Part shown: positions 1 to 8,388 of the stretch, in pieces | Layout of the letters: each line of letters opens with the position of its first letter | Numbering within the stretch: position 1 is the first letter of the stretch | Source of the DNA: Blepharisma japonicum | Taxonomy: Eukaryota; Ciliophora; Heterotrichea; Heterotrichida; Blepharismidae | Reading direction: 5' to 3' | NCBI GenBank assembly: GCA_949751835.1 | Contig: CATKHK010000099.1 | Coordinates: 1-64,000, forward strand | DNA length: 64,000 nucleotides | Translations under genes and position numbers: made by a program | Notes under the pieces: generated by a model | Database searches by the model: none | The model's input: only the letters and a program-made list of their open reading frames with translations | What the model was told of the DNA's origin: nothing

Positions 1-37
1 CACCCTAACACCCTAACACCCTAACACCCTAACACCC
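1..37. repeat. Telomeric repeat, chromosome left end
   Basis: Four full copies of CACCCTAA plus five further bases begin at the first base and stop where unique sequence starts. The C-rich strand reading inward from the end is the orientation expected for a left telomere. The 8-base unit is a permutation of the CCCTAACA repeat known from heterotrich ciliates. The window therefore starts at a chromosome end, consistent with the decayed genes that follow. Confidence 0.93.
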
Positions 38-6132: not shown

Positions 6133-8388
6133 TTAAAATTCTTCATCCCCAAATTTTCTTTGAATTCTTAATTTCCGTGGTGGATAGCAAAGATGTCCTA
6201 ATTTAGCACATTCGCTGCACCTATCTGGTAAATAATCATCTTCAAGACTTTCTGGTTTCTCTGCATACCATCTACAATCAGGCCTGTGATAGTGATTTCC
6301 ATGGGCCATCGTAGGAGATCTATAGCACGCACAAGTAAAGCAGAACACTGCTTTACATCTCGGTTCCATGCATTCTACATGCTCACATCCTTCATCTTTT
6401 ATATATGGCAATTTACACCCAGGACACTGAGATACAGCTTCTCCATTTCTCTCTAAATCTCTTATCCTACTCTTAATAAAATTTTTCTGGCAGTCTCCTT
6501 CTTCATGCCAAATCTCACTACAAGTAGTACAAAATTCATATTGGCAGTTTATACATGTAGCTCTTCGTGATTGGGGCGATTCGAATTGCTGATGACAATT
6601 TGGGCAGTTAATAATCCTGAAATCGCGATTTATCATATAAATATTCAGCTTGTTCCATGAATCTTCAGATAAAATATCTTGCAATAAAAGGGAGCCAATT
6701 TCTCCAGGGCAGTTTTCGTGAGGACATCTCATGGCTCTGGCTAAGGAATTTTGTTCAATATAGTATTCGATCATTCGTTTTAAATCGCTTTCACAGAAAT
6801 AATGGCTGCATGAGAGTTCTCTCAAGCAGCTGACTGTTAATCACTGTTGGCATATACCGCATTCTTTTAATGGTTCGGGAATAGGAACATTAACCACTAC
6901 CTGATTGGGATTTATGATTCTATCAAGAGATGGGCAGAGCTCTGATAAATTGCTGGAGCTGCTTTGAGGAGTGGTTTTTGCAGGAGGTTTTATGTCACTA
7001 TTAGGTATTGAGGGTTCACGGTGTGTCATTAATCGATAAAGTATAACTAATGAAATTACCCAAGCTGCAAAAAGTGATATAGGCACTGCTATAAATATTG
7101 CAAGCTGCCAGTCTGGAACTGAATTGCTGCTTTTTGATTCTGTAGAATTAGTCTCGTTGCCTCCTGATCCTGAACCTCCTGATCCAGAACCTCCTGATCC
7201 TGAGCCTCCTGATCCCGAGCCTCCTGATCCAGAGCCTCCTGATCCTGAGCCTCCTCCTGAATTTTTGCTAATTTGAGACTGCAATCCAACAGTAGTAAAG
7301 CCGATCCGCATCTTAGCCATATCAAAAAGTGTATAAAACCTTCTAAGAAACACATCTCCTAAAACTCATGTGTTTGCTATTGACGAATAATCAAACGCTG
7401 GATAGCAATACTCATTGATTTTTTGCATATACCCAGCAGATAAAATTTTGAATTTGAATCCATCAATTATTAATATTAAATCAGGGTATTTTTCATTGCA
7501 GTTACAAATAATCTGCCCTTTATCATCTTCATTACATGAATATTTATCATACAACTGCTTCAAAATACTAGTGATTACAACTTTTGGACCTAAAATCCAG
7601 CTGGTTCCAGGGCTGATTATCGCTTTAGACCCACCCGTAAAATTTAAATTATCAAAAATAGTATAATCATAATCCATTTGTCAATACCCATTAGAATTTG
7701 CTGCATTTATAAAAGTAAAATCGCTTTCTGCTGCATATTTAGATATATCATAGCCATCAATAATTAGCATTGATTCTCCTTTATTAGGCAAATCTGAATT
7801 GCTGTTTGAATCGTTTAAATAAAGTGAAAAAATCATGCTTGATATATCATTTTGATTGTATAAAGTACTTATAAGCGAATCGCCCCCATCATTTGAGGAA
7901 CTAAATCCTAATCCTAATACTCCATCTGGCCTAAGATCACCTGTTCCAGTCTCCTCATTAACTAAAATGATTCCTTGAGATTTAGCAGTAAGTTTTCCTA
8001 TGCTGACTGAATCACTTGCAGCATAACCTTTCATTTGTCCAACAGTCTCCAATGTTAAATATTTGCTTGTCGATTTATATGTTAGCGACTGACTTGGACT
8101 AAATTTTTTAGTTCAATCCCGGCACTGTTCACAGTCGATTGCATCAACAGCAATCCAGGAGGTTGTTAGGGATAATAGAAAAACAAAGTCTTGCGGAGGA
8201 GTTCCAATTTCAGTCTCAATAAAATATTGGGTCTAATTATATCTCACATTTTGGTCATTTGTGATAAAATTTGATGAAGAAAGAGATCTAAGTGAATTAT
8301 GAAATTTGTATAAAGGCTTTGACTTGTAATGTAAAGGTATCTTAAATGAGGCTTCTGATAAAAATGCTAAGATGAAGAAAAAGATCAT
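6133..8388 (-). CDS. Pseudo-aspartic-protease ectodomain, TM helix and RBR E3 ubiquitin ligase
   Basis: One 746-residue frame from ATG at 8388, interrupted only by a 15-nt intron at 8233-8247 (contains an in-frame UAG) and by UGA read as Trp. Residues 1-14 are a signal peptide. Residues 48-362 are a pepsin-like (A1) fold: QYFIETEIGTPPQDF, DGVLGLGF, a FSLYL strand and WVLGDVFLRRFYTLFD. Both catalytic motifs are altered: DTGSS is SLTTS at 68-72, and DTGTS is SPGTS at 254-258. The domain should be proteolytically dead and may bind ligand. Six SGSGG units (about 374-405) lead to one TM helix (about 422-448). A cytoplasmic RING1-IBR-RING2 follows from 505 (CGIC) to about 725. RING2 keeps GCEHVEC, which holds the catalytic Cys of RBR ligases such as parkin, and ends with HYHRPDC. 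A second 15-base GT...AG stretch (6830-6844) is best left unspliced because it gives normal RING1 spacing. Confidence 0.85.
7160..7249 (-). repeat. 15-bp minisatellite coding the Gly/Ser linker
   Basis: Six consecutive 15-base units (plus-strand consensus CCTCCTGATCCTGAG) differ at one or two bases and encode SGSGG pentads on the minus strand. They sit between the pepsin-like fold and the membrane helix and form a flexible extracellular stalk. The unit length is a multiple of three, so copy-number change would alter stalk length without breaking the frame. Confidence 0.9.

Follow-up and report, generated by a model that had tools for sequence, protein, structure and literature searches.

A pepsin-like gene with a ubiquitin-ligase tail

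The gene at positions 6133-8388 of the window (the whole 64,000-nucleotide stretch of Blepharisma japonicum DNA that was analysed) raises the question of whether a pepsin-like domain and a RING-IBR-RING (RBR) ubiquitin ligase belong to one protein and, if they do, what a protease-like head without its active site would do on such a ligase. The joined frame described in the first-pass annotation was found at these positions; it lies on the minus strand, which that annotation had not named, and has a 15-nt intron near its 5' end (Table 1). Exon 1, of 47 codons, is joined across the intron (8247-8233) to exon 2 (8232-6133), in which 699 codons are open in one frame with UGA read as Trp. The gene has four in-frame TGA codons, all read as Trp, and the chance of a 699-codon open frame is about 5e-17 from base composition alone. 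Passages on B. stoltei (PMC9942806) give UGA as a Trp codon, 15/16-bp introns as typical and CCCTAACA as the telomere unit, and these marks of the somatic genome are present here: UGA for Trp, introns of 15-16 bp and (CCCTAACA)n at contig ends.

Table 1. Features of the gene and of the contig end in the window.
Feature	Position	Strand	Basis or remark
Whole gene	6133..8388	(-)	ATG at 8388, TAA at 6133, 746 aa
Exon 1: signal-peptide-like start (MIFFFILAFLSEASF) and pro-like stretch	8248..8388	(-)	Paralogues with the same exon layout
15-nt intron, GT..AG	8233..8247	(-)	Place common to all 12 clade loci
A1 pepsin-like domain, residues 49-361	7291..8229	(-)	Pfam PF00026 and solved pepsins
First active-site motif altered, SLTTSW (68-73) in place of DTGSSN	8155..8172	(-)	
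Flap region TVGQMKG (110-116), Tyr missing, loop one residue shorter	8026..8046	(-)	
Second active-site motif altered, SPGTSW (254-259) in place of DTGTS	7597..7614	(-)	
Gly/Ser stalk	7159..7255	(-)	15-bp tandem repeat, 6.5 copies
One transmembrane helix (residues 425-445), flanked C-terminally by basic residues	7039..7101	(-)	Hydropathy
RING1, residues 505-555, zinc ligand 6 = Asp530	6709..6861	(-)	Alignment to ARIH1 and paralogues
IBR, residues 590-628	6490..6606	(-)	PF01485
RING2, residues 650-700	6274..6426	(-)	PF22191 and ARIH1 alignment
Predicted catalytic Cys663 in GCEHVEC	6385..6387	(-)	ARIH1 alignment
Telomeric repeat (CCCTAACA)n	1..36	.	Contig end about 6 kb from gene

The proposed architecture of pepsin fold, Gly/Ser stalk, one transmembrane (TM) helix and RBR was borne out by Pfam matches, hydropathy, the 15-bp repeat and alignment to ARIH1. 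The signal peptide was judged by eye and by hydropathy; from hydropathy and charge only, the protein has a signal-peptide-like start, one strong TM helix and a basic C-terminal flank, a pattern that would fit a type-I topology. An inverted repeat around GGATGGCACC was seen by eye near the telomere, at 131-165 of the window. According to passages of PMC9942806, Blepharisma adds telomeres at many places, and the nearness to a telomere of the window gene, and of the C78 cluster described below, may therefore be incidental.

The ectodomain has a predicted pepsin fold and an altered active site

The Pfam Asp profile (PF00026) matched residues 49-361 with an E value of 2.5e-46 over profile positions 1-314 of 315, a whole-domain match of the kind that defines the A1 pepsin fold. 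Among the solved pepsins, the best match was porcine pepsin, which aligned end to end with the ectodomain (E 3.7e-36), and six ectodomain cysteines correspond to those conserved in the family. An active A1 peptidase has two Asp residues in D[TS]G motifs and a flap Tyr; the window protein has Ser68 and Ser254 opposite pepsin Asp32 and Asp215, and the Tyr that is present in the five active relatives compared is missing from its shortened flap. The change of both catalytic Asp motifs to SLTTS and SPGTS, reported in the first-pass annotation, was thus confirmed; the second motif still has its GTS. As read from these alignments, the fold of the ectodomain is complete and its catalytic machinery gone.

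The C-terminal half is a predicted RBR module

In the window protein Pfam called IBR (PF01485, residues 579-628, E 3.1e-8) and IBR_1 (PF22191, residues 647-683, E 2.6e-9), but not RING1, which was recognised by alignment to ARIH1 and to the paralogues; RING1, IBR and RING2 follow one another in the order of an RBR ligase. ARIH1 and ARIH2 aligned over the RBR (best E 1.2e-11), and the parkin alignment started in the middle of RING1. Within RING2, the Cys of the ARIH1 GGC-x-H motif, which we take to be its catalytic Cys, stands opposite Cys663 of the window protein (C663-E-H), so that a predicted catalytic Cys and the His that follows it are both in place. The ligase had been described as active-looking, and the kept GCEHVEC region agrees with that description; the predicted metal and catalytic residues of the RBR are present, with the minor amendment that RING1 has Asp instead of Cys at zinc ligand 6 (FCESD). 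All receptor-type RINGs found in this genome have an acidic residue at ligand 6, namely Asp, or Glu in two of the three copies of L007.

The nearest RBR relatives in this genome are multi-RING proteins encoded on contigs C97 (53 and 50% identity) and C90 (43 and 41%), which have Cys at RING1 ligand 6 and in which no hydrophobic helix was found (best 19-residue mean 1.35). In a tree of RING1-IBR, the receptors and the C97 and C90 proteins formed one group (support 100/99), and the remaining 23 RBR rows fell outside it. The best tree did not show a common origin for the receptor RINGs, since it nested the C97 proteins inside them, though one receptor clade was not rejected (p-AU 0.33). Of 23 other RBR frames of at least 350 aa examined from this genome, 21 have two to five hydrophobic stretches, which lie behind the RBR in those frames that were inspected for order. 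C125:85000-105500 is a tandem array of RBR genes, and in the eight longer frames inspected there, two to four hydrophobic stretches lie behind the RBR.

One locus on C90 (L075, C90:75600-82400) encodes, in a single frame, an otubain-type deubiquitinase domain (PF10275, E 1.7e-25) together with several RINGs and a complete RBR, and is, as judged from its domains, a putative deubiquitinase-ligase fusion. A second tandem copy beside it, similar by eye, is spread over two frames. Pfam did not match the otubain domain in the C97 multi-RING proteins; the one C90 protein scanned was positive.

The window gene belongs to a clade of pseudo-pepsins with different tails

Searches of this genome (assembly of 45.2 Mb in 224 contigs) at the DNA and protein levels gave 12 loci in the clade of the window gene (Table 2), seven of which have a RING-type tail. 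The first-pass annotation had pictured a lone protein of new architecture. The architecture holds, and it was not described, among the matches listed, in the open-licence literature that was searched; the protein is not alone, being one member of a modular family. Contig C193 closely matches part of C78 (90-94% identity in long matches and 87% along a stretch of 945 bp) and may represent another allele of that region, so that the independent genes may number nine, three loci being possible alleles. The C78 loci form a tandem cluster of pseudo-pepsin receptors (C78:13842-37578) about 14-36 kb from the telomere of that contig, with the near copy on C193, a 20-kb contig.

Table 2. Tails of the 12 clade loci.
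Locus (contig)	Tail	Remark
Window gene (C99)	RBR	
L069 (C78) with L081	RING1-IBR, long stretch without Pfam domain, kelch, same frame	Kelch_6 in L081, E 2.5e-6, above cut-off
L008 (C193) with L082	RING1-IBR, long stretch without Pfam domain, kelch, same frame	Kelch_6 in L082, E 3.5e-5, just below cut-off
L071 (C156), L072 (C189)	RING1 and half IBR, terminated by stop	Pfam RING matches weak or absent
L007 (C78)	Three RING1 copies	zf-RING_2, E 9.9e-11
L074 (C193)	RING1	Read by sequence, outside Pfam scan
L004 (C78)	Kelch only	Kelch_6, E 4.4e-8
L003 (C78)	Like L004	89% DNA identity to L004 over kelch part; frame shift ahead of kelch
L002 (C8), L005 (C78), L006 (C193)	Short	

In a maximum-likelihood tree, the 11 usable loci formed one clade (support 100/100) in which the window gene and L002 are sisters (99/97); L074, whose sequence runs over two frames, was omitted from the tree and from the active-site table. 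The 13 rows labelled 'dead2', from which L079 was excluded because it keeps the first Asp, also formed a clade (99/95). Both catalytic Asp residues are lost in all ten of the 11 tree members that could be read at both sites: the Asp32 place is Ser or Asn and the Asp215 place Ser or Thr in these ten aligned dead members, and both are Asp in the five chosen active relatives. The motifs of L074 read SLRYS and SSGTS, and L004 is interrupted at the first motif. The catalytic loss is fixed in the clade. The interruption of L004 (C78:27652-31452) is an insert of about 640 bp (reverse strand, about 755-1397) that its sister L003 does not have, and may be a retained IES or a mobile piece.

The intron, of the 15/16-nt type, has an identical place in all 12 clade loci, the gene of L069 being read through the overlapping L005. 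It was found at the same place in L076 (16 nt), in both L077 and L078, and in three L080 genes; the anchor used for the comparison did not reach L079 or one further L080 gene. Outside the clade, L077 and L078 (C21) have also lost both Asp residues, a single Asp is retained in L079 and in each of the three L080 frames included in the tree, and L076 (C59), L033, L035, L027 and L030 keep both, together with a TM helix and a short tail. The L080 tandem cluster (C1:291500-300900) and L079 (C1:264700-266700) thus comprise TM-anchored pepsin-like genes with one catalytic Asp lost, apparent half-way states.

Among clade members, an intact RING2 was found in the window gene alone. Decayed RING2 pieces with stops lie downstream of L069 and L008 (E 1.5e-8 and 6e-6), within L081 (C78:17300-20700) and L082 (C193:3800-6700), and the L069/L008 cluster therefore probably once had a full RBR too. 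L002, with an ectodomain 68% identical to that of the window protein, lacks a RING tail, and a search for an RBR remnant in the 1.2 kb behind it gave no match; the E3 half is therefore dispensable for at least some members. Because the nearest active-looking relative, L076, is a pepsin with a TM anchor and only a short tail behind it, the likely history is an anchored protease that lost catalysis and then gained E3 modules.

Constraint acts on the ectodomain, with no excess in the cleft of the dead clade

The ectodomain dN/dS was 0.19 between the window gene and L002, and 0.29 (window/L003), 0.30 (window/L071), 0.29 (L071/L007) and 0.34 (L005/L006) in other pairs; these ratios point to purifying selection on the ectodomain. 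The value of 0.54 for L069/L008 corresponds to weak constraint. Synonymous sites of the RBR were saturated in the comparison with C97, and its constraint was therefore judged only from a dN of 0.35 and from the kept residues.

We then compared conservation in and outside the cleft, using a list of 33 positions that we take to line the pepsin cleft, of which 29 could be mapped, and 5000 random position sets. For the five active relatives, cleft conservation was 0.772 as against 0.622 elsewhere, a value reached by 6 of the 5000 sets (11 on repeat); without the eight catalytic-motif positions it was 0.686 against 0.622, reached by 754. The ten dead members gave 0.659 in the cleft and 0.703 elsewhere, with 4225 of the 5000 sets as high, and 0.619 against 0.703, with 4772 as high, when the two motifs were taken out; omission of the two C193 copies led to the same outcome (0.651 and 0.701). 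The idea that the cleft is under special conservation in the active relatives and was freed from it in the dead clade was considered and rejected, since the motif-free control attributed the excess mostly to the motifs themselves. This test of ten members gave no sign that the cleft was retained for binding in the dead clade. Without the motifs, conservation of the cleft there is, if different at all, lower than that of the fold; the cleft has diversified or relaxed and has not been kept.

A receptor-like ligase is the preferred reading

The best-supported mechanism is the one put forward in the first-pass annotation, a pseudo-protease that would bind a ligand and control ubiquitination across the membrane. 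We regard it as moderately probable that the protein is a ligand-binding, type-I transmembrane receptor-like E3 with a dead pepsin head and a cytosolic RBR. The catalytically dead domain would face the lumen or the outside and serve as a putative binding domain, and the flexible Gly/Ser stalk and the membrane helix would hold the complete RBR in the cytosol. A protein or peptide bound from the lumen or the outside might cluster the RBR, bring it to a substrate or remove it; the RBR would pass ubiquitin from an E2 onto Cys663 and then to the receptor itself or to membrane partners. The most likely outcome would be the dispatch of receptor and cargo to endocytic or food-vacuole degradation.

A dead-enzyme head with several different inner tails looks like a home-made receptor family. 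A wider reading, which we put forward tentatively, is that these are lineage-specific, ligand-gated ubiquitin ligases built on a pseudo-pepsin, in which the dead cleft would have turned into a recognition site that diversifies, either extracellularly or inside the food vacuole, and a single head would have acquired RBR, RING-IBR-kelch, multi-RING and kelch tails one after another; ciliates would then have evolved a modular receptor-E3 system of their own, separately from the ZNRF3/PA-TM-RING type of animals. If the receptor reading is right, this RBR ligase spans the membrane and has a large binding domain on the lumenal side, and a protease active site was retired while its fold was reused as a receptor head. 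The steps stand side by side in one genome (active anchored pepsin, half-dead, fully dead, and dead with E3 or kelch tails), and the question of how a pseudo-enzyme becomes a receptor could accordingly be put to the test by comparison and simple assays in one organism.

Several other explanations were weighed. The head may bind no ligand, so that the dead pepsin only folds, anchors the ligase and targets it to an endolysosomal or food-vacuole membrane. Descent from, or an ancestor common with, the short-tailed anchored pepsins that keep both Asp residues (L076, L033, L035 and L027) is consistent with this idea, as is a cleft without extra conservation; however, an anchor would not need a whole 310-residue fold with the family cysteines, kept at the window/L002 dN/dS of 0.19, and the same head was retained while tails were exchanged. 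We consider an inert head unlikely. Somewhat more doubtful is a regulator of sibling proteases, in which the dead domain would pair with active pepsins or act as a decoy for their substrates, propeptides or inhibitors, and the RBR tail would ubiquitinate and remove the complexes. Potential partners are plentiful, with 99 Asp-domain matches in this genome (exon pieces counted apart), many of those read having intact motifs and several being TM-anchored, but the interaction is putative, and such a regulator would be a special case of ligand binding.

There is only a slight chance that the locus is decaying or artefactual, either an assembly chimera or a pseudogene near a chromosome end. Its subtelomeric place, the broken frames or insert of L003, L004 and L074, and the stop-bearing RING2 relics near two paralogues would suit decay; against this, the window copy is fully open and retains the intron, the cysteines and the RBR residues, and pepsin, TM helix and RING occur together in six other loci, in five of them in one unbroken frame (the frames of L074 are broken). 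With these six loci, the clade-wide loss of the active site and the common intron, a chimeric assembly was rejected, and the sequencing error or false join that the first-pass annotation had named as possible flaws is very unlikely. It is highly improbable that the protein is still a protease, working through the substituted residues: the fold and the second-motif GTS persist, but neither catalytic Asp (Asp32, Asp215) nor the flap Tyr has been kept, and this holds consistently across the clade.

Comparison with known systems

The receptor-like ligase preferred here resembles in overall plan the PA-TM-RING ligases and ZNRF3/RNF43. The former (GRAIL/RNF128, RNF13, ZNRF4) are described in passages of PMC4021871 as having a signal peptide, a lumenal protease-associated (PA) domain, one TM helix and a cytosolic RING-type E3, and the latter, in passages of PMC3905715, as membrane-spanning ligases that remove Wnt receptors and are under the control of an extracellular ligand, R-spondin, which their protease-associated ectodomain binds. 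In contrast to their PA domain and RING-H2, the window protein has a whole pseudo-pepsin and a RING-IBR-RING with a predicted catalytic Cys; Pfam gave no PA match in it at E values up to 1, and an RBR takes the place of a RING-H2 finger. Judged by domain content, the likeness would be one of convergent plan and not of kinship, as no domain beyond RING-type zinc fingers is common to them.

Inactive A1 proteases, namely Bla g 2, the pregnancy-associated glycoproteins (PAG) and the TAXI xylanase inhibitors, have a pepsin fold without a working active site, as here, and PAG and TAXI resemble the window ectodomain in this respect. Proteins of this kind are secreted and single-domain, and to our knowledge none has a TM helix or an E3 tail. 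Bla g 2 is termed an inactive aspartic protease in the abstract of PMC9541408. It matched the window protein with an E value of 6.7e-14; TAXi Pfam matches were below the cut-off.

Membrane-anchored pepsins, such as BACE1/2 and, in this genome, L076, share with the window protein the A1 domain and stalk and, as predicted, the signal peptide, TM helix and cytosolic tail, whereas the window protein has lost both Asp residues and gained a large E3 tail. Human membrane RBR ligases begin with the RBR and end with the TM part. Passages of PMC4021871 describe RNF19A/B, RNF144A/B and RNF217 as an RBR module with hydrophobic segments. Unlike in these ligases, the RBR of the window protein is the C-terminal tail of a predicted type-I protein with a large lumenal domain.
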